From: Alcanivoracaceae bacterium
GTDB taxonomy: Bacteria > Pseudomonadota > Gammaproteobacteria > Xanthomonadales > Marinicellaceae
Assembly (NCBI GenBank): GCA_016763695.1
Contig: JAESTH010000284.1
Span: forward strand, 1-38,914
Direction: 5' to 3'
DNA: 38,914 nt
Part shown: positions 133 to 21,955 of the stretch, piece after piece
Position numbering within the stretch: the stretch's first letter is position 1
Layout: the number at the start of each line of letters is the position of its first letter
The notes under the pieces: model-generated
Seen by the model: only the letters and a program-made list of their open reading frames with translations
Told to the model about the DNA's origin: nothing
Databases searched by the model: none
Translations under genes and position numbers: made by a program

Positions 133-1740
133 TTATGGATTATGGAACTCTGCACTAGGACGCATATAATAGAACCAATTCAATACCAAACATACTGCAT
201 AGAATATTGCAAAACCATACAATGCATATTCAGGAGTAGTTGCCTTAATCTGTTCACCAAGAATTTTAGGAATTAAAAAAGCACCATAAGCGGCAATGGC
301 AGCAGTCCAACCCAATACTGGGCCAGCTTGCTCTTTGTCAAAGATGGTTGCAATGGTTTTGAAAGTAGAGCCATTACCAATACCCGTGGCTGCAAACAAT
401 ACTAAAAATAACAATAAAAATGGCACAAAGAAATCTTGTGGAGTAGCACTGACATAAGCCTGTTGCATATAATATGCCACACCCAATGCGCTAGCAATCA
501 TAACAATTGACACATATTGTGTTACCTTAGCACCACCAATTTTATCAGCAATCATGCCACCAATTGGACGAATCAAAGCACCAATAAATGGCCCCATCCA
601 TGCCCACATAAGAGCACTTGGCCCATCAGGATTAGCCAAGTTATGAGTCATCACACCATCAACCATCACATGTTGATAACCAAATATAACCTTAATTGAT
701 AAACCAAAACCCACAGCATAACCAATGAACGATCCAAAGGTCATGGTATAAATCACAGTCATCACCCAAGTGTGCTTGTTTTTAAAGATTTTGTATTGTC
801 TGGTTAAGTTTTTACCTATCGCACCAGGGATCATTTTTAGTAAAAACACAGTCATGCCAATAACAATTGGTAGTACGATAAACTTATCTAATTCAAGGCC
901 TGAACCACCAATTTTTGCTGGTAACAATAACCACAAACCAAAAGCAGCAGTGATAAGACCAATAGCTAACATAAAGATGATTTTTGAGAAAGCCGATAAT
1001 GGATTGCCGACATTAGGTGAAACATGCTCATCAGCAATATTATTCATACCAAACCAGGTAGCCACCGCCAATGGCACAAGTAAATACAACCAAACAAAAC
1101 CTGCATTGTGTATATAAGTTTCTGTACCTGCTGGAATTTTACCGATTAATGTTCCACTGGTTGTTTCGAGAATCATAGGATCCCCTCCAAACAAGGCAAA
1201 AGTCATTACTAAGGGCACAACAATTTGCATGGTAGTCACACCAAAGTTACCCAGACCAGCATTCATACCCAATGAATATCCTTGGACTTTCTTAGGATAG
1301 AAATAAGATATATTACTCATTGATGAGGAGAAATTACCACCACCAAAACCAGATAGCAATGCCCATAACTGGAACTGCCATAAAGGCGTATCAGCAGACT
1401 GCAATGCAAAACCAACACCAACGGCTGGTATAATCAATAAAGCAGTGGTTAAAAATATTGTATTTCTACCCCCTGCAATACGGATAAAGAATGTACTGGG
1501 TATTCTTAATGTTGCACCCGACAAACCTGCAATTGCAGCCAGGGTAAATAATTCAGATTTTTCAAATGGGAAACCCAAATTCAACATCTGTACTGTAATA
1601 ATACTCCAGTATAACCATACGGCAAAACCGCACAATAAAGCTGGGATAGAAACCCATAGATTCCTGGTTGCTATTTTCTTCCCATATGATGCCCATTGCT
1701 GGTCATCTTCTGGGTTCCAATTTTTTAAGTCTTTAGCCAT
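133..1740 (-). CDS. narK: NarK2-type nitrate/nitrite transporter (MFS)
   Basis: This is a 535-residue inner-membrane transporter of the major facilitator superfamily, NarK/NasA family, predicted to move nitrate in and nitrite out. It has about 12 hydrophobic segments. A conserved arginine in the early part (R79, in LRIPSTFFIRIAGGR) and one in the second half (R391, in ALIRPIGGMIADKIGG) match the two arginines that bind the anion in NarK. The glycine-rich nitrate signatures are present near residues 131-167 and again around GNGSTFKTIATIF. It is longer than typical NarK (about 460), mainly through insertions near residues 184-213 and 355-378. The start is well supported by AGAGGAG just upstream. 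It lies 63 bases downstream of the second transporter gene and is probably in the same operon. The assignment to the antiporter type is inferred from length and pairing. Confidence 0.93.
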   Translation of the reverse strand: MAKDLKNWNPEDDQQWASYGKKIATRNLWVSIPALLCGFAVWLYWSIITVQMLNLGFPFEKSELFTLAAIAGLSGATLRIPSTFFIRIAGGRNTIFLTTALLIIPAVGVGFALQSADTPLWQFQLWALLSGFGGGNFSSSMSNISYFYPKKVQGYSLGMNAGLGNFGVTTMQIVVPLVMTFALFGGDPMILETTSGTLIGKIPAGTETYIHNAGFVWLYLLVPLAVATWFGMNNIADEHVSPNVGNPLSAFSKIIFMLAIGLITAAFGLWLLLPAKIGGSGLELDKFIVLPIVIGMTVFLLKMIPGAIGKNLTRQYKIFKNKHTWVMTVIYTMTFGSFIGYAVGFGLSIKVIFGYQHVMVDGVMTHNLANPDGPSALMWAWMGPFIGALIRPIGGMIADKIGGAKVTQYVSIVMIASALGVAYYMQQAYVSATPQDFFVPFLLLFLVLFAATGIGNGSTFKTIATIFDKEQAGPVLGWTAAIAAYGAFLIPKILGEQIKATTPEYALYGFAIFYAVCLVLNWFYYMRPSAEFHNP

Positions 1741-1803: not shown

Positions 1804-3099
1804 CTATTTAATGTTTTCCAATTCAGGTAAGAATTTAGATTTATCTGGATGAGATTTCTTCTCTGCTCTGAGAATTGCAAAGTGCATCCATATCAATGAC
1901 ACGGCGATAATGATAGAAAGCAACATAAAGCAACTTGTCCATACACCAATGTGATCGTTCATAACACCGAAGGTAATAGGTAGAATAAAACCACCCAAAC
2001 CACCGATCAAACCAACAATACCACCCACAGAACCAACATTGTCAGGGAAATAATGAGGAATATGCTTATAAACAGCTGCTTTACCAAGTGACATAAAGAA
2101 ACCGAGTATAATTGTCATGATTACAAATAACCACAATGGGATAGTTATATTAAATTCGATGGGTCCATTGATACCAGCGACAGTGTAATCAGTTGCAGGA
2201 TATGACATAACGATAGTACAAATCAATGTCACACTAAATGTCCAATACATAATTGTTCTGGCACCAAATTTATCTGACAACCAGCCCCCTAGAGCTCTAA
2301 ATACAGCGCCAGGTAGCGCATAAGCTGCTGCCAGCATACCAGCTGTGGCCAACTCAAGCCCGTAAGCCCCAACATAATATCTTGGCAGCCATAAAGCCAA
2401 AGCGACATAAGCACCAAACACAAAGAAATAATACAGAGAGAATCTCCAAACAATTAAGTGCTTAAGTGGTTTCATTTGTTCCATAAATGGTCTGGACTGT
2501 TGTTTAACTCCTGAATGAGCTGGGTCAGTTTTACTGAATAAGAAAAACAATACAGCAGTAGCTGCCAATATTGATGCATAAACGTAAACAACTGAACGCC
2601 ATTCACCACCCATGGCAACCAATAAAATCGGAGCGCCAAAGTTAGTAACAGCAGCCCCAACATTACCAGCTCCAAAGATACCTAAGGCTGTACCCTGTTT
2701 ATGATCTGGATACCATGATGAAACATAAGCAATACCAACAGCATATGAGCCGCCAGCTAAACCAAGCCCTAATGCACCAACAAGATACATCTCATAGGTA
2801 CTGGCATAAGTTAAGAAGAATGCCGCTAATGCCGATGTCAACATTTGCAATGTATAAATAATTCGGCCACCATATTGGTCAGTCCATATGCCTAAAAATA
2901 TACGGCTTAATGAACCTGTCAAAATAGGTGTTGCTACCAAAAGACCAAATTGTGTATCACTGAGGCCCAACTCAGCTTTAATTTTTATACCAATGATTGA
3001 AAAAATAGTCCACACAGCAAAACACACAGTGAATGCTAATGTACTGGTTGTTAATGCCCTGGCTTGATCACCTTTGGACACGTTTTCTAAATTTTTCAT
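1804..3099 (-). CDS. narK: NarK1-type nitrate transporter (MFS)
   Basis: This 431-residue major facilitator protein is of the nitrate/nitrite porter family and the size usual for the NarK1 (proton-coupled nitrate uptake) group. Conserved arginines are R66 (LSRIFLGIWTD) and R268 (GAVFRALGGWLSDKFGAR). The nitrate signature in the first half (GLAGGSYAVGIAYVSSWYP, about 113-131) and its counterpart in the second half (KAAVYKHIPHYFPDNVGS) are clear. It is the first gene of a leftward operon with the 535-residue transporter. A Shine-Dalgarno AGAAGGGG precedes the ATG. The FNR-type box and a matching -10 lie upstream, so induction under low oxygen or nitrate is likely. The split into uptake and exchange roles between the two proteins is known for other denitrifiers and only inferred here. 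Confidence 0.93.
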   Translation of the reverse strand: MKNLENVSKGDQARALTTSTLAFTVCFAVWTIFSIIGIKIKAELGLSDTQFGLLVATPILTGSLSRIFLGIWTDQYGGRIIYTLQMLTSALAAFFLTYASTYEMYLVGALGLGLAGGSYAVGIAYVSSWYPDHKQGTALGIFGAGNVGAAVTNFGAPILLVAMGGEWRSVVYVYASILAATAVLFFLFSKTDPAHSGVKQQSRPFMEQMKPLKHLIVWRFSLYYFFVFGAYVALALWLPRYYVGAYGLELATAGMLAAAYALPGAVFRALGGWLSDKFGARTIMYWTFSVTLICTIVMSYPATDYTVAGINGPIEFNITIPLWLFVIMTIILGFFMSLGKAAVYKHIPHYFPDNVGSVGGIVGLIGGLGGFILPITFGVMNDHIGVWTSCFMLLSIIIAVSLIWMHFAILRAEKKSHPDKSKFLPELENIK

Positions 3100-3136
3100 A
3101 ATTACCCCTTCTCGTAAATAACAAATTTATGAGGGT

Positions 3137-3142
3137 ATTTTA
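3137..3142 (-). promoter_or_regulatory. Predicted -10 of the narK operon promoter
   Basis: On the minus strand this reads TAAAAT. It is placed so that the FNR-type box centred at 3170.5 would lie about 41.5 bases upstream of a start near 3129, the standard class II activator position. No good -35 hexamer is present, as expected for an activator-dependent promoter. Confidence 0.45.
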
Positions 3143-3301: not shown

Positions 3302-4840
3302 ATGAATCAACTTTTAATATTATTGTGTAGATCTATCCATGCGTTTCAAAAAGAGCGAGGAAGCTTATGTTTATTTTTGTCCACTAAGGATGATTACAGC
3401 TTCAATAAGTTAATACATGCTTTTAAAAATAGCGATTTGTTAATCAAGGAAATTTTAGACTACGATAGCCTGAAAAACACCAAACTAAACAGTGAACAAA
3501 AAAAGAGCTACAAAAAACTGGCAAATATTTATAGTGGCTTCTTAAGCAAAGCTGCCTTTAGAGATAAAATTACAAGCATAGCAGATATAGATCATTGCGA
3601 TATAGATATTTTTGAAGTAACGCCGTTGTACACACACTGTATTATTATCCATTTAACTTATGTTTTGATCGAACTGGCTTTATTTGATACAAAAAACACA
3701 CCCTCTGATATAAGTGCTTTTTCGAATTTTATCAACTGGAAAGAGCGTATTGGTAGAGAACGCGCCTTGGGAATTGTTGGTTTTGCCCTCAATGAATTTA
3801 GCTCAGAACAGTTTAGCAGAGATTTTAAACTTTTATTGAGTGAACAAAGCATTAACGAACGCTCATTTTTGGCTTTAGCCAGCTTACAGCAGAAACAAAT
3901 CTTTACTAACAGCTTTATTAAAAACATTGAAATAGAAGATGTTCACCAGAAAATGGAAGCTGGGGAAATACCCAAAGTTAATGCGAAAAACTGGTTTCAA
4001 TTAGTAACTGCCAAAATGGAAATGATGCATGATATTGAACTGACCTTAATCAAACAATTTGATAACAAAAAAATCGTCATCACCAATACTTATCAAACAG
4101 CAATGAGTGATGATGATCGCCGTTTAATTCTTGATTTTCCTATTTTCAGAAATTTATCAGAAGAAACCACCCACGAGTTATTTAAATTAAGCAACATCAA
4201 AACCTATAAAAAAGGCAGTTTATTATTTTTGCAAGGAGAACAGGCAAGTAGAATTTATGTTATATTGAGTGGCTGGATAAAAATATTTAAAAGCACACCA
4301 GATGGCAATGAATCTGTAGAACAAATGTTATCAACTGGCAATATGCTTATTGAGTCATCCATATTTTCCAGCGAAAAATATTACAGCAGTTCACAAGTAA
4401 GCAATGACGCAAAACTATTATCATTTCCTGCTTCTATTTATAGAAATTTATTGACCAAAGATTTAGCTTTAACTTTAAACTCCTTAAAATATTTGTCACA
4501 GCATTCCAGAAGTTATTTAGACCAAATTGATAACAACAGACTTAAATCATCTAAAGAGCGTGTTGGCTGGTTTTTACTCAAACAGTTTATTGAGCAAAAA
4601 AACCCCAATACCATATTATTACCCTATGACAAGACCATCATTGCCTCTTTATTAGATATGAAACCAGAAACTTTTTCTCGATCTTTAAGATCATTTAAAA
4701 ACAGTGGTTTATCATCAGAAAAACATCAAATCCAAATTAAAGACATTAAATTATTGTGTAAATACTGTGACACAAGTTTAGCAACCCATTGCCATTTCAA
4801 AGATAATCATGACTGTAAATTCAAAAAAAAATCTCACTAA
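3302..4840 (+). CDS. NIT-domain Crp/Fnr-family nitrate-responsive regulator
   Basis: This 512-residue protein joins two modules. Residues about 8-255 resemble the NIT (nitrate and nitrite sensing) domain of NasR-type proteins: an N-terminal QKERGS segment (R19) and a central KERIGRERALG segment near residues 147-156, in a long all-helical region. Residues about 276-385 form a cyclic-nucleotide-binding-like beta roll, and about 413-483 a winged helix-turn-helix. The recognition helix holds E456-T-F-S-R460, the ExxSR pattern of FNR. The last 27 residues carry C486, C489, C497 and C505 plus several histidines, a possible metal or Fe-S site. There is no transmembrane segment, so it should be a cytoplasmic one-component sensor. 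I chose ATG at 3302; an in-frame TTG lies at 3296. The ribosome site is weak. Its last 32 bases overlap moeA, implying coupled translation. Confidence 0.82.
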   Translation: MNQLLILLCRSIHAFQKERGSLCLFLSTKDDYSFNKLIHAFKNSDLLIKEILDYDSLKNTKLNSEQKKSYKKLANIYSGFLSKAAFRDKITSIADIDHCDIDIFEVTPLYTHCIIIHLTYVLIELALFDTKNTPSDISAFSNFINWKERIGRERALGIVGFALNEFSSEQFSRDFKLLLSEQSINERSFLALASLQQKQIFTNSFIKNIEIEDVHQKMEAGEIPKVNAKNWFQLVTAKMEMMHDIELTLIKQFDNKKIVITNTYQTAMSDDDRRLILDFPIFRNLSEETTHELFKLSNIKTYKKGSLLFLQGEQASRIYVILSGWIKIFKSTPDGNESVEQMLSTGNMLIESSIFSSEKYYSSSQVSNDAKLLSFPASIYRNLLTKDLALTLNSLKYLSQHSRSYLDQIDNNRLKSSKERVGWFLLKQFIEQKNPNTILLPYDKTIIASLLDMKPETFSRSLRSFKNSGLSSEKHQIQIKDIKLLCKYCDTSLATHCHFKDNHDCKFKKKSH

Positions 4841-6110
4841 TAAAATACTGATAAACTATCAGCAAGCCCTTGATATTATTAAACAAATATCAAACAAACA
4901 TAAAGTAAAAAATATTGATAACATCCCATTAGTCGATGCTACTCAACGCTTATTGGCGGCAGATTATTTATCACCCATTAATGTCCCTCCATTCAACAAC
5001 TCTGCAATGGATGGTTTTGCCATCCAAAGAAAATCAGTTAATGAGTTATTTAATGCGCAAAAGCCCATTAAATTGCAGGTAACAGGTTCTATTCAGGCTG
5101 GTGACAATGCCGAAATTGTGGCACAAGCAAATACAGATAATGCATGGGAAATTATGACAGGCGCCCCTGTACCTTCTCCATTTGATGCCGTTATACAGAT
5201 TGAAAATGTCGAAATATCAGAAAATGAAGATGGGAAATTTATCACTTTCAATGAAGAAATTAAAGAAAATAGAAACATAAGAAAACTGGGGACGGATTAT
5301 CAGTTAGACCAATTAGTCACCAATAAACATACACAAATACAGGCTCAACACATTATGGCTCTAGCCACAGTTGGGATTGAAAACATTGATGTCTTATCTA
5401 GGATTAAAGTTGCAATACTATCTACTGGCAACGAATTGGCAAAAAAATCCGATCACACGCTCAACTCAGGAAAAATCCACAATTCAAACCAGCCTTTTTT
5501 AAAAGAATACTGCAAAAATTTAAATTGTGAGCCAGTCTTTGTTGGTCGCTGCAAAGATAATATAAAAGACTTTAACAAACTCATAGATTCAGCCATATCT
5601 AAACAGGTTAAAATTATATTTTCAACGGGTGCTGTATCGATGGGAAAACATGATTTTATTCCCCAAGCTCTCATTCAACGTGGGGCTAAAATTCATTTTC
5701 ACAAAGCCAAAATCAGACCAGGAAAACCCATATTATTTGCAGAACTTGCCAATAAAACCCTCTATTTCGGTTTACCTGGCAATCCAATTGCCGCAGCATC
5801 GGGCATGAGGTTCTTTGCTGCACCCTTAATCCGGAACATGTTGGGCTTAAGCACAGAGAAACTGATAAAGGCAAAACTATTAAATAATCTTGACAGCAAA
5901 CGGGGCTTTAGAACTTTTGCCAAAGCATTTGCAAGTATTGATAAACATGGTCAGCTATGTGTAGATATGTTACTTGACCAGGGCTCATACCAGTCCCGCT
6001 CATTCGCACAGTCAAACTGCTGGTTAATCATACCTGAAGATAGAGCCACCATTCACACTGGCGAACTCATTAATATTGCACCGATGATACCCAATCATAT
6101 GATTTTCTAA
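4809..6110 (+). CDS. moeA: Molybdopterin molybdenumtransferase MoeA
   Basis: MoeA inserts molybdate into adenylylated molybdopterin, the final step to Mo-molybdopterin. The 433-residue protein shows the family signatures: VPPFNNSAMDGFA near residue 58, the GAPVP segment near 117, ILSTGNEL at the start of the MoCF domain, STGAVSMGKHDF as the substrate-binding loop, and LPGNPIAA followed by the C-terminal beta domain. Length is normal for the family. It starts inside the 3' end of the NIT-Crp regulator gene and ends in a one-base overlap with mobA, so the three are probably cotranscribed. Placement beside nitrate transporters suggests that cofactor supply is tuned to molybdenum-dependent nitrate reductase. 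Confidence 0.95.
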   Translation: MTVNSKKNLTNKILINYQQALDIIKQISNKHKVKNIDNIPLVDATQRLLAADYLSPINVPPFNNSAMDGFAIQRKSVNELFNAQKPIKLQVTGSIQAGDNAEIVAQANTDNAWEIMTGAPVPSPFDAVIQIENVEISENEDGKFITFNEEIKENRNIRKLGTDYQLDQLVTNKHTQIQAQHIMALATVGIENIDVLSRIKVAILSTGNELAKKSDHTLNSGKIHNSNQPFLKEYCKNLNCEPVFVGRCKDNIKDFNKLIDSAISKQVKIIFSTGAVSMGKHDFIPQALIQRGAKIHFHKAKIRPGKPILFAELANKTLYFGLPGNPIAAASGMRFFAAPLIRNMLGLSTEKLIKAKLLNNLDSKRGFRTFAKAFASIDKHGQLCVDMLLDQGSYQSRSFAQSNCWLIIPEDRATIHTGELINIAPMIPNHMIF

Positions 6111-6685
6111 TGGAAAAATCAGATAAAATTGTAGGTGTCATCTTAAATGGAGGAAAGTCATCACGGATGGGGCAAGATAAATCTGCATTAAAACTGACAA
6201 ATACTACACTTTTAGAACACACAAAACAATTGTTCATTGATTCAGGACTTGAAGATATTTTTATCAGCGGCAAACATGGAATTGAGGACAAATATCAAGA
6301 CAAAGGTCCTCTGGCAGGCATCTTAGCCTGCTTAAACTATTTAACTGACCATGATTTTGTGCTATTTATCCCTGTCGATATGCCATTATTGACTAAAGAA
6401 ATAATCACCAAACTACAAAGCCATAAAAAAGCAACTGTGGTTTATTTTCAAAATTACAATTTACCATTAATGATAAAAAACAATAAGAAAATCAGAGCAT
6501 TGATTGAGAAACAAATAAAATCAGAAAAATTATCCATATATCAGCTGTTTGATTTACTAAAAGCAAAAGCCTTAGCAAACAACTACCCAAAAAAACTTTT
6601 TATCAATACAAACTCTCCTCAACAATGGCAAAATGCCAAGAAAATTTATACAGAGCTCAATTTAAACAAATCTAAGGTTCGATAA
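6110..6685 (+). CDS. mobA: Molybdenum cofactor guanylyltransferase MobA
   Basis: MobA transfers GMP from GTP to Mo-molybdopterin, giving the guanine dinucleotide form used by DMSO-reductase-family enzymes such as Nar and Nap. The N-terminal nucleotide-binding loop is LNGGKSSRMGQDKS, followed by GPLAGI near residue 65 and the metal-site segment PVDMPLL near 88. Its 191 residues are typical. The start codon overlaps the moeA stop by one base. The last 14 bases overlap the 3' end of the convergent phosphatase gene. An MGD-type cofactor fits the presence of nitrate transport genes upstream. Confidence 0.93.
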   Translation: MEKSDKIVGVILNGGKSSRMGQDKSALKLTNTTLLEHTKQLFIDSGLEDIFISGKHGIEDKYQDKGPLAGILACLNYLTDHDFVLFIPVDMPLLTKEIITKLQSHKKATVVYFQNYNLPLMIKNNKKIRALIEKQIKSEKLSIYQLFDLLKAKALANNYPKKLFINTNSPQQWQNAKKIYTELNLNKSKVR

Positions 6686-11123: not shown

Positions 11124-11843
11124 ATGTCAGATAATATCATAACAGTTAATAACAATTGCTGGATAATTGCGCATGAAGAATATAAAAATGAAATAGACTC
11201 ACAATGGTTTAATGACAAATACTGGTTAAATCAGGGACGACTACTGGGCGCCAGCAGTGGCCGGGGTTCTGCCTGGATGATTAAATTCGCCAACATTAAA
11301 ATGATGCTAAGACATTATTACCGCGGTGGACTCCCTGCCAGATTCAATAAAGACAAATACTTATGGACAGGTTTAAACAAAACCAGAAGCTTTTGTGAAT
11401 ATAGATTACTGGTAAAAATGTATTCACTCAACTTACCCGTACCTGAACCCGTTGCCGCACAGGTATGTAAAATTGGTCTCTTTTATCAAGCCAATATATT
11501 AATAAAATATATCAATCACCAATCGACTTTTGCGGGATTGTTAAATATCAATTCATCAGCAGAATCATGGCAACAGGTAGGTAAAGTAATCGCTGACTTT
11601 CATAATCATGGTGTATACCATGCAGATTTAAATGCCAATAACATACTAATCGATGATAAACGGGTCTATCTCATTGACTTTGACCACTCAAAACAATGCC
11701 CGCCCAGAAAAATGTGGCAAAATGCAAATATGAGAAGATTAAAAAGGTCTATTGATAAACTCACAAACAATGACTATATAGGTACAAATGAAGAAAAATG
11801 GCAACTATTGCTACAATCCTACCAGAAAATAATTAAAAGATAA
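11124..11843 (+). CDS. kdkA: 3-deoxy-D-manno-octulosonic acid kinase (Kdo kinase)
   Basis: KdkA phosphorylates the Kdo residue of Kdo-lipid IVA at O-4 in bacteria that carry a single Kdo in the LPS inner core. The 239-residue protein has a kinase-like fold: LGASSGRGSAW near residue 42, the family segment LRHYYRGGLPARFNKD, the catalytic loop YHADLNANNILID (D168) and the metal-binding LIDFDHS (D185). I chose ATG at 11124 because the following residues align with the family start; an in-frame ATG lies at 11085. Neither has a clear Shine-Dalgarno. The stop overlaps the moaA start by one base, so moaA depends on kdkA transcription or translation. The divergent heptosyltransferase-like gene supports the LPS assignment. 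Confidence 0.88.
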   Translation: MSDNIITVNNNCWIIAHEEYKNEIDSQWFNDKYWLNQGRLLGASSGRGSAWMIKFANIKMMLRHYYRGGLPARFNKDKYLWTGLNKTRSFCEYRLLVKMYSLNLPVPEPVAAQVCKIGLFYQANILIKYINHQSTFAGLLNINSSAESWQQVGKVIADFHNHGVYHADLNANNILIDDKRVYLIDFDHSKQCPPRKMWQNANMRRLKRSIDKLTNNDYIGTNEEKWQLLLQSYQKIIKR

Positions 11844-12850
11844 TGAAAAACATTACAGACAAACTAAACCGTCCCATTAAAGATTTACGTATATCCGTTA
11901 TGGATACATGCAATTATCGCTGCCCCTATTGTATGCCCGAGGATAAATTTGATGAAAACTATCAATTTTTAAAACCACAGGAAAGACTCAGCTTTGATGA
12001 AATTTATCGCATAGTTAAAGTCTTCGCAGGCTTTGGCGTCAACAAAATAAGACTCACAGGTGGCGAACCTTTACTTCGAAAAAACTTACCTGAACTGATT
12101 ACAAAACTCAAAAGTATCAATGGTATAAAAGACATTGCATTAACTACAAACGGACAGTTATTACAAAAACAGTTACCGCAACTTATCGATGCTGGCCTGG
12201 ACAGGGTCAATATAAGTCTTGATACCATTGATAAAGACCTGTACTACCAGATGAGTGGCAACAAAGGCCATTTAAAAGTAGTATTGGCTGCGATAGAATC
12301 TGCCAGAAAATCATCCTTAAAAAGTGTAAAACTGAACTGTGTAGTACAAATTGGCGTTAATGATGATCAAATATTATCATTACTAAAAAAATACCAGGAC
12401 ACCGATGTTGTGGTCAGGTTTATAGAATTTATGGACGTTGGCAATAAAAATGGCTGGCAAAAAGACTCGGTATTACATTTTAAAGAAATTTTACAACACA
12501 TTGAAAAAGAATGGAAAGTCAATGCAATTGATCCTAATTACAAAGGAGAAGTTGCAGCCAGATATAAATATCAGGATCACTGTGGTGAAATTGGCTTTAT
12601 CACATCAATATCCAAACCATTCTGTAGAGACTGTTCGCGCGCGCGATTATCAGCCGATGGAAAACTCTACACCTGTTTATTTGCCAGCGAAGCCTTTGAT
12701 TTAAGAAAACACCTCAGAAATGAAGATGATATTTTCTTAAAACAGTACATACAAAATGTCTGGCAAAACAGAGAAGATAGATATAGTGAAGTCCGTCATC
12801 AGCTAAAAGGCCGCAAAGACAAGATTGAAATGTACGTGATAGGAGGATAA
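11843..12850 (+). CDS. moaA: GTP 3',8-cyclase MoaA
   Basis: MoaA is the radical SAM enzyme that converts GTP to 3',8-cyclo-7,8-dihydro-GTP, the first step of molybdopterin synthesis. The N-terminal cluster motif is CNYRCPYC (CX3CX2C), followed by LTGGEPLLR, which binds S-adenosylmethionine. The C-terminal second Fe-S site is formed by FCRDCSRARLSADGKLYTC (CX2CX13C). The protein ends in the functionally important Gly-Gly. Length (335) is normal. It overlaps kdkA by one base and is followed after 4 bases by moaC, giving the order moaA-moaC-moaD-moaE. moaB or mog is absent here. Confidence 0.97.
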   Translation: MKNITDKLNRPIKDLRISVMDTCNYRCPYCMPEDKFDENYQFLKPQERLSFDEIYRIVKVFAGFGVNKIRLTGGEPLLRKNLPELITKLKSINGIKDIALTTNGQLLQKQLPQLIDAGLDRVNISLDTIDKDLYYQMSGNKGHLKVVLAAIESARKSSLKSVKLNCVVQIGVNDDQILSLLKKYQDTDVVVRFIEFMDVGNKNGWQKDSVLHFKEILQHIEKEWKVNAIDPNYKGEVAARYKYQDHCGEIGFITSISKPFCRDCSRARLSADGKLYTCLFASEAFDLRKHLRNEDDIFLKQYIQNVWQNREDRYSEVRHQLKGRKDKIEMYVIGG

Positions 12851-12854
12851 TCAA

Positions 12855-13322
12855 GTGCCTGAATTAACCCATATAGACAAAAGCAACAATCCCACCATGG
12901 TTGATGTCAGTGATAAAAAAATCACTAAAAGAACAGCCACAGCAACCTCAACTGTGATATTTCCTGATGAGATTAAACATTATTTTCAGGATAATGAACT
13001 GGTCACCAAAAAAGGACCCGTATATCATACCGCTATTATCGCTGGAGTGATGGCAGCAAAAAAAACCCATGAGCTCATTCCTTTTTGTCATCCTCTAGCA
13101 ATTGAAAACTGTAAAATTGATATCAAGACCAATGACCAAGGCAATGCAGATATTACCTGCAAAGTCTCATTACACCACAAAACAGGTGTGGAAATGGAAG
13201 CATTAACAGGAGCGTCAATTGCGGCCTTAACCATTTACGATATGTGCAAGGCTCTGTCACATGATATTGTTATAACCGCTACTAAACTTGTTAAGAAAAC
13301 AGGCGGAAAATCGGATAAATAG
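12855..13322 (+). CDS. moaC: Cyclic pyranopterin monophosphate synthase MoaC
   Basis: MoaC rearranges the MoaA product to cyclic pyranopterin monophosphate. The 155-residue protein shows MVDVSDK near residue 15, KKTHELIPFCHPL with the conserved HP, TGVEMEALTGAS and the YDMCKA segment with the catalytic aspartate. It uses a GTG start at 12855, clearly set by an AGGAGG 8 bases upstream that lies inside the end of moaA. The stop is followed by a short low-complexity stretch of GATAAATA-like units before moaD. Confidence 0.96.
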   Translation: MPELTHIDKSNNPTMVDVSDKKITKRTATATSTVIFPDEIKHYFQDNELVTKKGPVYHTAIIAGVMAAKKTHELIPFCHPLAIENCKIDIKTNDQGNADITCKVSLHHKTGVEMEALTGASIAALTIYDMCKALSHDIVITATKLVKKTGGKSDK

Positions 13323-13353
13323 ATAAATAAATAGATAAACAACACTAAAGCTT

Positions 13354-13596
13354 ATGATAAAAATACAAGTACTGTTCTTCGGAAAACTCAAAGAAAGCTG
13401 GGGCACAAACAAACTGGAAGTAGAAACAGGTAGCCATAATATTGAAGACCTATATCTTGAATTATTAAACAAAGCTGCCAATATTCCACATAAAGAAAGC
13501 ATAAAAGTCGCCATCAATGATGAATTTGTTAACTGGGATACAACAATAAACAGTGGTGATACCATCGCTTTCTTGCCGCCTGCATCTGGAGGATAA
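13354..13596 (+). CDS. moaD: Molybdopterin synthase sulfur carrier subunit MoaD
   Basis: MoaD is the ubiquitin-like small subunit whose C-terminal glycine is thiocarboxylated and delivers sulfur to the pterin. The 80-residue frame starts IKIQVLFFGKLKE, has the expected beta-grasp size, contains GDTIAFLPPASGG at the end and finishes exactly at Gly-Gly. Its last codons contain the Shine-Dalgarno GGAGG for moaE, so the two subunits are translated in tandem. No adenylating MoeB gene is present in the window. Confidence 0.93.
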   Translation: MIKIQVLFFGKLKESWGTNKLEVETGSHNIEDLYLELLNKAANIPHKESIKVAINDEFVNWDTTINSGDTIAFLPPASGG

Positions 13597-13597
13597 C

Positions 13598-14011
13598 ATG
13601 TTTGATCTCAGTGAAAAAAAAATAAATGATAGTCAATTAAAAGCACAAACCCTTGACCCAAGCTCTGGTGGCTTTGTCTGTTTTGAAGGGTGGGTACGCG
13701 ACAACAATCAGGGAAAAGATGTACACAAGCTGGCCTATGAAGCCTACCCCAAATTAGCCATCAAAGAAGGCAATAAGATAATTGCCGAAGCCATAGAAAA
13801 ATATGACATAAAAAAAGCCCTGTGCACCCATAGAGTTGGCCTGCTTGAAATTGGTGACATGGCGGTATGGGTTGGCGTCTCGGCTGCACATCGTGATGCT
13901 GCTTTTAAAGCCTGTAGATACATATTAGATGAAGTTAAATCACGTGTGCCCATCTGGAAAAATGAATCCTGGACAGATGGTGAATCTGGCTGGGTGGAAC
14001 AAGAATCATAA
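13598..14011 (+). CDS. moaE: Molybdopterin synthase catalytic subunit MoaE
   Basis: MoaE is the large catalytic subunit that, with MoaD, inserts two sulfurs to make molybdopterin. The 137-residue protein shows GGFVCFEGWVRDNNQG, LAYEAYPKLA, the HRVGLLEIGDMAVWVGVSAAHR core and the lysine-containing VKSRVPIWKNE segment, all standard. I chose the ATG at 13598, with GGAGGATAAC before it, over a frame that opens at 13553 inside moaD. It lies 1 base after the moaD stop. The TPR gene follows 40 bases downstream on the same strand. Confidence 0.95.
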   Translation: MFDLSEKKINDSQLKAQTLDPSSGGFVCFEGWVRDNNQGKDVHKLAYEAYPKLAIKEGNKIIAEAIEKYDIKKALCTHRVGLLEIGDMAVWVGVSAAHRDAAFKACRYILDEVKSRVPIWKNESWTDGESGWVEQES

Positions 14012-16698: not shown

Positions 16699-16832
16699 AC
16701 TATACCTATAAATCTGGAGCTTTATTACCCGATAAATATGCTTCTATAATACAACAATTTGATGTTTATCAAGTAAAAATATATTAAAGACCTGTACACT
16801 CCTGCTTCGATTTAAATGAAAAGTAAAATGAC

Positions 16833-17276
16833 ATGAGAGAAATAATTCAGAAACTAAGAAAAGCAAAAATGTCTCACAAAAGGTGGGTCGGACATGCTTC
16901 AGCCATGATTGAAGGTATTCCTATAGAAAAAGACCAGGTTCCTATCAATTACACTGACTGTGATTTTGGTAACTGGTATTATGATGAAGGACAAAATCTC
17001 TCTAGTCTGGATGAATTTAAAGAGATTGAAGATCCACATAAAGAATTACACAATATCTATATGAAAATATTTAAAATATTATTCGAGCAAAAGAAGTTAT
17101 CATTTTTTAGTAAATTAATAGGAAAATCTGCCACCATTAGTGAGCAGAATAAACAGTTAGCCAGAGCCAAGTTCCGCACATTGGAAGAAGTTTCCAGACA
17201 AATATTAAAAAGCCTAGATGCACTCGAACTCAAGTTAAAGCAGATGGGAGAAGAAGAAGTTGCAAAATTGTTTTAA
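16833..17276 (+). CDS. Standalone CZB (chemoreceptor zinc-binding) domain protein
   Basis: The 147-residue soluble helical protein consists of little more than a CZB domain. The zinc ligands of the family are all present: H15 (SHKRW), C43 (CDFGNWYY), H69 and H73 (PHKELH). In characterised CZB proteins this 3His-1Cys site binds zinc with very high affinity, or reacts with hypochlorous acid, and controls an attached chemoreceptor or diguanylate cyclase. Here no output domain is attached and no chemotaxis or GGDEF gene is next to it. The C-terminal part (about 75-140) is a long helix that could mediate dimerisation. The ribosome site is weak. It probably acts in trans or buffers zinc. Confidence 0.8.
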   Translation: MREIIQKLRKAKMSHKRWVGHASAMIEGIPIEKDQVPINYTDCDFGNWYYDEGQNLSSLDEFKEIEDPHKELHNIYMKIFKILFEQKKLSFFSKLIGKSATISEQNKQLARAKFRTLEEVSRQILKSLDALELKLKQMGEEEVAKLF

Positions 17277-19766: not shown

Positions 19767-21955
19767 TTATTTTTTCTTAAGATGACGATTAAAAAACTCA
19801 ACCATCTTTTTGAAAGCAAAACGCCTTTGAGCGTCACCTTCATTATCCCAGCCATGACCACTGCCTGGTAATGTCACCAGTTCAAACATTTTTTCCTGGG
19901 CAATAAGCTTCTCAACCACAGAAATTGTATCCGAATACAAAACCACACTGTCTTTAGAACCATGAATAATCATTAATGGGTCGGTAAGACCACTGGTATG
20001 ATAGAGTGCAGACTGCTGTCTATAGCGTTCAGGCTGATCACTGCCTGTGGGCTCTCCCATCACCCACATTTGCCCAGGATAGGCATGTGCCACATTAGTT
20101 GCAGGCGCTCCAGCAATACCCGCAGCATAGACCCCCGGTTTTTAAACAGGGACATCATGGTCATAAGTCCTCCATAACTTGAGCCCCAAATTCCCACACG
20201 CTTTGCATCTACATAACCCTGCTCGACAAGATACTTGACGCCACTGTGCAAATCTTCAATATCAATGCCACCATAACTGTAACGCAAACCTTGATTATGC
20301 AGTCTCCCCTGCCCCCAACTACCCCGTACATTTACATTCAACACAATATAACCCTGAGCAATAAAATATTGATCCAGACCCCAGGTCGGATGATAATTCC
20401 GCCCACCATATTGATTGCGAACACTATCAGAATAAACCGACCCCACAATTAAAGGATAAGCTCGAGATGCATCATAATTTTCTGGCAAGCTCAATCGACC
20501 AATAAGCATCGCACCATCCACATGACTATTAAATTCAATATAAATGGTATTAGCCCAAGTCAACTGATCGAAACTAGCTTGAGGAGAATGGGTAACTGCC
20601 TCAGTGTCTTTATTGGCAAGCTTGATCATGTATAATTCTAGGGGTGTTGAATCATTAGAAAACAGTGTCGTTGCATGATTCATATCTGGGGAGAGCAATG
20701 GCTGGTGGGTGCCAGGTTTGGACGAGCTGATTCGCTCAATCTTGCCTCCTTGCATCGAAACACGATAAATTTGTCGTTCTGACAAATGAGATTTATTGGC
20801 CAGAAAGTAAATTTGCCCATGTAAATAATCAACCTTAAAATATGAAATCTCCCATTTGCCACTGGTCAATGCCTTGGGCTTACTATCCGCGGTCTTTTTA
20901 TGATAAAGGTGTAGATAACCATCCTTGTCAGTCAAAATAATTAAGCCTTCATCATTAGGAGCCCAAGCTACCTGCCAGTCAGGTCTTAAATGACTCGCAT
21001 CATACTCCCGATAAAAAACAGTGCGAGCAGCACTTTTAACATCGTAAACATAGATAATATGTTCCTTAACCAAGAGATCAGAACTATTGATAAAAAGTGT
21101 CTGAGCATCACTGGACAAGCCATAATTCCAAATATAATGTTTGTCATCTGGTCTTGCAAAAAATTGAACATTGCCCGAATCAAGTTGTATAACACCAATA
21201 CTAAACCGCGCCGTTTCATCACCAGGAAATGCACGAGAAACGTGACTATTTTGCACAGCCGAGTGCGCATAATAATGTATGTCCCGTTCTGGCAAAAAAC
21301 TGTCATCGGTTAATTTAAAAACAAGGCTATGACTATCATTCGACCATTCATAACTTTCAATATAGGCTTTTTTTGACTGACCTCGAGTAAGCAGTTGACG
21401 GGCAGAACCATGTACAGAAATTTCACTTGTACGCAGCCACAGGGCGCCATCTGCAATAAAGGCCAGATGCTGGCCATTTGGAGATAAAGTTAAACCTCTA
21501 ATCGCACCTTTATCCATCTCAATTTGCTGAGAACTACCATCAAGTCCTTGCACAAAAAGCTCAGCATCCAAAACATAAGCAATGTGTGTTTTTTCGGAAT
21601 CAAGCCATATGACTTCACTAATACCTGCATGTCTTTGCTCAGTGGGGGTTTTATTCGCATACTTGGTTAGACGTTTCTTAAGCCCTGTTTTTAAAGAGTA
21701 CATCCAAACATCACGAAAAGTATAGCCCTCTTCATTCCACAAGAAGACAACAGACTCAGCATCTTGAGACCAGACAACTGCCTGTGGAGTCGTGCCAATA
21801 ATACTGGGGTTTGAATAAAGCGTATCCAGATCAAATACATGATTGATATGATTGATATGATTGATATGATTTTCATCATTAGCTAAAATATTCTGACATA
21901 CTATCAATGCTAGTAATAAAACCGTTATTAACTTATACAAACCACATTTCAACAT
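19767..21955 (-). pseudogene. S9 (prolyl oligopeptidase/DPP IV-like) peptidase, frameshifted
   Basis: Joined across a frameshift, this would be an exported serine peptidase of about 729 residues. It has an N-terminal signal peptide, a beta-propeller-type region (about 40-460) and an alpha/beta-hydrolase domain. The nucleophile is in GIWGSSYGG (S593). The aspartate (HGSKDSVV) and histidine (GSGHGWDN) of the triad lie in another frame, reached only after the shift. The break is at a run of five C on the plus strand (20132-20136; G on the coding strand), where restoring one base gives NRG-VYAAGIAGAPATNVAHAYPG. The ATG at 21955 has AGGGTGAA upstream. It could be a recent inactivation, phase variation by slippage, or a sequence error. 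The undisrupted rest of the gene favours a recent event. Confidence 0.85.
21841..21867. repeat. Three tandem 9-base units within the S9 peptidase gene
   Basis: GATTGATAT is repeated three times, encoding the HIN-HIN-HIN stretch just after the signal peptide. It lies in frame, so copy-number change would alter the linker by three residues without breaking the gene. Confidence 0.8.

Follow-up and report, generated by a model that had tools for sequence, protein, structure and literature searches.

The NasR protein of Klebsiella oxytoca is a soluble, one-component regulator of the response to nitrate and nitrite, in which an N-terminal NIT domain is joined to an ANTAR output that acts on nascent RNA, by antitermination, in the control of nitrate assimilation. 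The protein described here, which is encoded within a stretch of 38,914 nucleotides (referred to throughout as 'the window'), resembles NasR in its soluble, one-component form and in the position of its NIT domain, but differs from it in that its output is a DNA-binding module of the Crp/Fnr type and its gene is found beside respiratory nar genes; no match to an ANTAR domain was found in the fusion using Pfam, and a Crp helix-turn-helix was found instead. The same job that is presumed for the fusion, namely nitrate control of narGHJI and narK, is performed elsewhere by NarX or NarQ together with NarL or NarP. Those proteins constitute a membrane two-component system, whereas the fusion carries sensor and DNA-binding output in a single soluble chain.

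In Paracoccus, nitrate and nitrite control of the respiratory nar operon is exerted by NarR, a Crp/Fnr-family protein that replaces NarXL and that has been described as FNR-like without a [4Fe-4S] cluster (PMC8139620, PMC3541799), and in narR mutants effective denitrification from nitrate does not begin (PMC3541799). The fusion shares with NarR the presence of a Crp/Fnr gene beside narK and narG (NarR being compared here by description, not by sequence), and a description of the nitrate-sensing part of NarR-type proteins was not found in the literature searched. NarR is of ordinary Crp/Fnr size and has no known NIT domain. By analogy, the fusion would best be explained as a mechanistically explicit counterpart of the Paracoccus protein.

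Additional relatives are found among the Crp/Fnr proteins themselves. DNR/NNR and FNR have the Crp fold, the ETxSR recognition helix and the TTGAT-type box in common with the fusion, but they lack a NIT domain, the cysteines of FNR are N-terminal, and the fusions fall in a clade separate from DNR and FNR. The Fnr proteins of Bacillus subtilis and Bacillus cereus are Crp/Fnr proteins that, like the fusion, have cysteines in an extension at the C-terminus (PMC3520743), but with a different spacing, with three cysteine ligands and one aspartate ligand, and with no NIT domain. What is new here is a sensor-output combination within a known superfamily, set in an operon context that is conserved and accompanied by a second module, likewise conserved but unexplained, the four-cysteine (Cys4) tail. 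A preliminary description of the locus had held that a direct link between NIT and a Crp/Fnr effector was hardly described, and indeed no description of one was found in the open literature, as distinct from subscription papers and domain-architecture databases; the fusion extends the outputs joined to NIT sensors to DNA binding, beyond the ANTAR, kinase, cyclase and chemoreceptor outputs.

A NIT domain and a Crp/Fnr module in one reading frame

The regulator gene (Table 1) opens with an ATG codon that is also the start codon in close orthologues, and closes with a stop codon ending at 4840. Three Pfam domains are matched within this single frame above their curated cut-offs, as anticipated in the preliminary description of a NIT domain fused to an FNR-type DNA-binding module: NIT (78.2 bits against a cut-off of 24.9, E 1.6e-21), cNMP_binding (58.3 bits against 27.5, E 7.4e-16) and HTH_Crp_2 (40.9 bits against 27, E 2e-10). 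All three were matched in each of the nine close members. The KERG and KERIGRERALG segments that had been picked out by eye correspond to residues 17-20 and 147-157, and both belong to the conserved parts of NIT domains. The fusion was the only NIT protein found in a scan of its own whole genome. The protein is soluble, with its chain beginning at the first NIT helix; because no membrane helix precedes the N-terminal NIT domain, it would be expected to respond to nitrate or nitrite in the cytoplasm.

Table 1. Positions of the regulator, its domains and the neighbouring features in the window
Feature	Position	Strand	Evidence
narK2, NarK-type nitrate/nitrite transporter	133..1740	-	NCBIfam TIGR00886
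narK1, NarK-type nitrate/nitrite transporter, divergent	1804..3099	-	TIGR00886, 219.4 bits
Putative narK -10 hexamer, TAAAAT	3136..3141	-	sequence
FNR/DNR-type palindrome TTGACGGAAATCAA	3164..3177		centre 31 bp upstream of narK -10 hexamer
NIT-Crp/Fnr-Cys4 fusion regulator, 512 aa	3302..4840	+	ORF, Pfam, orthologues
NIT nitrate/nitrite-sensing domain, residues 12-252	3335..4057	+	Pfam PF08376, whole-genome match, NasR 4akk fold
Crp-type beta-barrel (cNMP_binding), residues 300-386	4199..4459	+	Pfam, FNR/CRP fold match
Crp helix-turn-helix (HTH_Crp_2), residues 419-487	4556..4762	+	Pfam, FNR-type recognition motif
Four-cysteine tail C486, C489, C497, C505	4757..4816	+	invariant across fusions
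moeA, molybdopterin molybdotransferase	4809..6110	+	Pfam domains over cut-off
mobA-like molybdenum cofactor guanylyltransferase	6110..6685	+	Pfam domains over cut-off

The genome in which the window lies is represented by an 85% complete assembly of 312 contigs, and in so fragmented a host assembly the fusion might represent two genes joined by an error of sequencing or assembly. That reading was ruled out, and its probability is negligible, because independent assemblies of 8 further close and 3 distant genomes display the identical fusion, as a single open frame in each.

Two structure models of the protein were compared with solved structures. The first, calculated from 9 close sequences, was confident in the NIT half only and was useless for the Crp half; its NIT half matched NasR (4akk) in a Foldseek search (E 3e-6, TM 0.60 by target length). 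The second, calculated from 49 sequences, reached a mean pLDDT of 88.4, with low confidence where the two halves meet (258-265) and in the last residues. A structural aligner superimposed residues 1-283 of this model upon NasR (Z 25.9 over 250 residues) and residues 269-492 upon the FNR of Aliivibrio fischeri (Z about 22), and thus both predicted halves agree with the folds expected of them. NasR is also the nearest solved sequence to the NIT half (E 3.7e-12, using a family profile). The preliminary description had staked its NIT assignment upon a search with PF08376, a fold comparison with NasR and the presence of conserved arginines; the family match and the predicted fold both came out in its favor, and R19, R154 and further arginines are present and invariant across the family.

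Conservation was assessed using a set of 65 NIT domains of other architectures, and the positions considered were those in the two signature segments and the core that are invariant or nearly so in that set. Kept in the window are H13, Q16, E18, R19, G20, R87, K147, E148, G151, E153 and R154, as well as A155, F161, Q182, F189, W231 and E246, while T28 and D30 deviate from the S28 and G30 of the general family. The residues that are invariant over eight diverse fusions include R19, R87, K147, R149 and R154. We take the nitrate-contacting arginines of NasR to be those in its KERG helix and its GQER segment, which would have R19 and R154 as their counterparts here.

A NIT match is itself no proof of a ligand, because the NIT domain of PA4520 from Pseudomonas aeruginosa bound neither nitrate nor nitrite, and the authors of that study suggest the existence of NIT subfamilies with different ligands (PMC6381276). 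The NIT domain of the fusion might similarly have lost nitrate sensing, so as to bind another small ligand or none, and might serve mainly in dimerisation or in signalling from some other cue. This we regard as improbable, given that all NIT-invariant residues have been kept over a deep divergence, that the locus is specific to nitrate, and that the closest solved relative is a nitrate regulator.

The recognition helix of the Crp half carries E456-T-F-S459-R460, which corresponds to the ETxSR motif of the FNR type. By sequence the Crp half is nearest to 3fx3 and DNR, and by fold to FNR/CRP. With the HMM for FNR proper (NF008365) the fusion scores 32 bits, far beneath the cut-off of 228, and it lacks an FNR-style N-terminal cysteine cluster, its four conserved cysteines being C-terminal. 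A tree of the Crp core unites all fusions with two stand-alone Crp proteins that carry the cysteine tail, in one supported group (95/90) that is separate from DNR, 3fx3 and FNR, which places the fusions outside DNR/NNR. This tree does not reject a single clade of fusions (p 0.18), and because the fusions group with two NIT-less proteins of the Cys-tail type, an old single origin of the fusion, followed by occasional loss of NIT, is possible.

Distribution of the fusion

The fusion represents a family, of which 12 sequences were examined. Full-length orthologues, 50-73% identical to the window protein, are found in 8 further genomes of the same taxonomic family, and C-terminal fragments at contig edges in 2 more; the named records among these relatives carry the labels Lysobacterales, Alcanivoracaceae or Gammaproteobacteria and are metagenome-assembled genomes. 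Three distant members, at about 32-34% identity, belong to other classes of the phylum and were recovered by a full-length profile search: G1066 (L160, 33%), G1117 (L161, 32%) and G1397 (L170, 34% over the part present, which is cut by its contig). Their recovery demonstrated that an assignment of the fusion to one taxonomic family was wrong.

The architecture is nevertheless rare, being present in 3 of 388 genomes in a sample of the phylum (its own genome included) and in 2 of 298 in a sample of the class of G1066. With a narrow peptide pattern, a single-protein scan of 84,980 species yielded no fusion and a NIT-profile scan yielded only the same close group. The other NIT matches in the order proved to be chemoreceptors or GGDEF proteins, or were spurious; none of the NIT loci examined from the class and phylum samples had a Crp half, and no fusion was found on plasmids.

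Association with nitrate respiration

The two divergent genes beside the regulator had been described as nitrate transporters, an assignment that stands in that both are of the NarK type by TIGR00886, though their scores (275.8 and 219.4 bits) are below the cut-off of 311.7. An overlap of the regulator with moeA-mobA had also been described; this is correct for moeA, by 32 bp (4809-4840), but not for mobA, which instead overlaps moeA by 1 bp. The overlap with moeA is also seen in locus L022, while in L023, L025 and L026 moeA begins just past the stop codon of the regulator.

This arrangement, in which a narK pair is divergent from the regulator and molybdenum cofactor genes follow it, is found in all 11 loci with both flanks visible; in the close loci of this kind (nine of nine, the window included) there are two divergent narK genes, and moeA comes after the regulator. 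Wherever the sequence extends far enough, narG (with narH) follows the transporters, so that narG comes after narK2 in relatives, a point overlooked in the preliminary description; narG is missing here because the contig ends just past narK2, and it was not found in the 85% complete assembly of the same genome. In the two distant loci L165 (G1066) and L166 (G1117), whose regulators are about 32% identical to that of the window, narK1-narK2-narG-narH-narJ lie on one side, and moaA and moeA on the other, joined in L166 by moaC, moaE and mobA. Within the window itself, a second molybdenum cofactor block, moaA-moaC-moaE, lies at 11843-14011, about 5 kb downstream of moeA-mobA.

When the remaining genomes of the taxonomic family were compared (the genome of the window being left out), the regulator was present in 10 of 11 that have narG and in none of 21 that lack it (Fisher p 1.7e-7, kinship ignored). 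The exception, G001 of a sister genus, encodes at the equivalent position, divergently from narK, a stand-alone Crp protein without NIT (L142:12590-13327), with the box TTGACCTAAGTCAA at 12470; the occupation of that position by such a protein suggests a need for a local regulator.

A PilJ sensor frame of NarX/NarQ size, as judged by PilJ matches and frame size, was not found in the fusion-bearing genomes, where PilJ-domain frames are about 673-688 aa with one exception of 861 aa. Two of these were inspected; one proved to be a chemoreceptor (MCPsignal) and the other, in the genome of the window, a PilJ-Hpt protein. The latter type of protein, PilJ-PilJ...Hpt (the 861-aa frame; G000:C20, L147), has a perfect FNR-type box just upstream, at C20 9008-9021, and is possibly a further nitrate-type sensor. 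The same genome encodes an FNR with N-terminal cysteines, beside a gene for a COX1-type oxidase, and, next to a cytochrome-cd1 gene, a DNR-like protein; together with the fusion, these correspond to the trio of oxygen, NO and nitrate regulators represented in Paracoccus by FnrP, NNR and NarR (PMC3541799, PMC8139620).

The operator upstream of narK

The palindrome TTGACGGAAATCAA was found exactly at the position given in the preliminary description. All nine close and both distant loci (11 of 11) have a perfect TTGA(C/T)-N4-(A/G)TCAA in the DNA that separates narK from the regulator, where the chance of its occurrence, estimated from shuffled intergenic sequence of equal composition, is about 0.002 per locus. 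In L028 and L029, the flanks of the box are 34-39% identical to those of the window and its spacer differs, whereas the half-sites are fully kept. Of the nine close loci, seven have a -10-like hexamer with five of six matches that faces narK at 31 bp from the center of the box, as does L166; a weaker one is found at 30-32 bp in L028 and L029, and none is clear in L165. This distance of 31 bp is that of a class II FNR/CRP site at -41.5.

The box cannot be assigned exclusively to the fusion, because FNR and DNR, both of which are encoded in the genome, should read the same type of box. Exact boxes are enriched in that genome (67 sites, against 27 for a reversed control), and boxes of this type are found on the contigs of the FNR and DNR-like genes. 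It could thus be argued that the narK box, which matches the FNR consensus, is served by FNR (with its N-terminal cysteine cluster) or by the DNR-like protein, and that the fusion has its targets elsewhere, or does no more than modulate FNR where the two share sites. That arrangement is unlikely, since the regulator lies beside the box in 11 of 11 loci across classes, its presence tracks that of narG, and in G001 it is again a Crp-type regulator that is encoded beside the same box.

The C-terminal cysteine tail

The Cys4 tail, which the preliminary description had overlooked, has the spacing C-x2-C-x7-C-x7-C in the window, with small shifts in other members; C486, C489, C497 and C505 are themselves invariant in every fusion, the distant ones included. 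No Pfam family over its cut-off and no solved structure was matched by the tail, and confidence in its model is weak (pLDDT about 60). Neither the FNR nor the DNR-like proteins of this genome and family carry such a tail. Judging from these cysteines, the tail is likely to coordinate a metal or an Fe-S cluster.

An extension of the NarR-like explanation, with which it is compatible, is that the fusion is a dual sensor, in which nitrate would be perceived via NIT and oxygen, NO or redox state via an Fe-S cluster on the Cys4 tail, so that nitrate and anoxia would be combined in one protein. The invariance of the four cysteines and their absence from FNR and the DNR-like protein point in this direction, as does the oxygen-sensing [4Fe-4S] cluster that B. 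subtilis Fnr carries on C-terminal cysteines (PMC3520743). Against this, the spacing in B. subtilis Fnr (C-x2-C-x4-C plus Asp) is different, an identical appearance would be expected of a structural zinc site, and the tail has neither a family or structural match nor a confident model; we therefore hold dual sensing to be a serious possibility, with the odds leaning somewhat against it. More doubtful is the combined proposal that an undescribed NIT-Crp-Cys4 family of dual sensors switches on narK-narGHJI and replaces both NarXL and a part of the role of FNR.

Stand-alone Crp proteins with an LC-x-FCD...C...C tail and no NIT domain were observed in L162, L175, L178 and L180. Those of L162 and L178 are the two that group with the fusions in the Crp-core tree, and L162 is apparently near cbb3-oxidase-like genes (by eye only).

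A proposed mechanism

The fusion is probably a one-component, cytoplasmic sensor of nitrate (and/or nitrite) that activates transcription of the genes for nitrate respiration. Its binding of nitrate and of DNA, like the role of its cysteines, is inferred, and the following sequence of events can be proposed. Nitrate imported by NarK would bind to the NIT helical bundle via R19, R154 and perhaps R87; the long terminal helix of NIT (228-255) is predicted to be connected by a short linker to the Crp half, where binding of the ligand would alter the Crp dimer such that the ETxSR recognition helix engages TTGA(C/T)-N4-(A/G)TCAA. Bound at about -41.5 of narK, the fusion would contact RNA polymerase as a class II activator. 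This would form a feed-forward loop, with nitrate that has been imported increasing both nitrate uptake and nitrate reductase, and the fusion would fill the regulatory position of NarXL, or of NarR in Paracoccus. A metal or Fe-S cluster on the Cys4 tail might provide a second input, from oxygen or redox state.

Because narGHJI is found after narK in relatives, the respiratory nitrate reductase operon is likely to be the principal target. The earlier suggestion that nitrate is tied to uptake and cofactor supply without a two-component system is thus supported in outline, with its emphasis moved to narGHJI; nitrate control of moeA-mobA finds no support here, because the box faces the narK promoter. 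Since nitrate-sensing and DNA-binding domains reside on one chain, beside a likely target promoter, the coupling of nitrate to DNA can be tested directly with one protein and one operator. The fusion could also be put to use as a compact, genetically encoded sensor of nitrate, and its tail offers a possible nitrate-and-anoxia logic within a single protein.

Additional features of the window

A prolyl-oligopeptidase-like protein at 19767-21955 (minus strand) is apparently split, by eye, into overlapping frames (20060-21955 and 19767-20093), which suggests a frameshift or an assembly error. A second perfect FNR-type box, TTGATGTTTATCAA, is present at 16759-16772, about 60 bp upstream of a gene (16833-17276) for a 147-aa protein consisting of a stand-alone CZB (chemoreceptor zinc-binding) domain.
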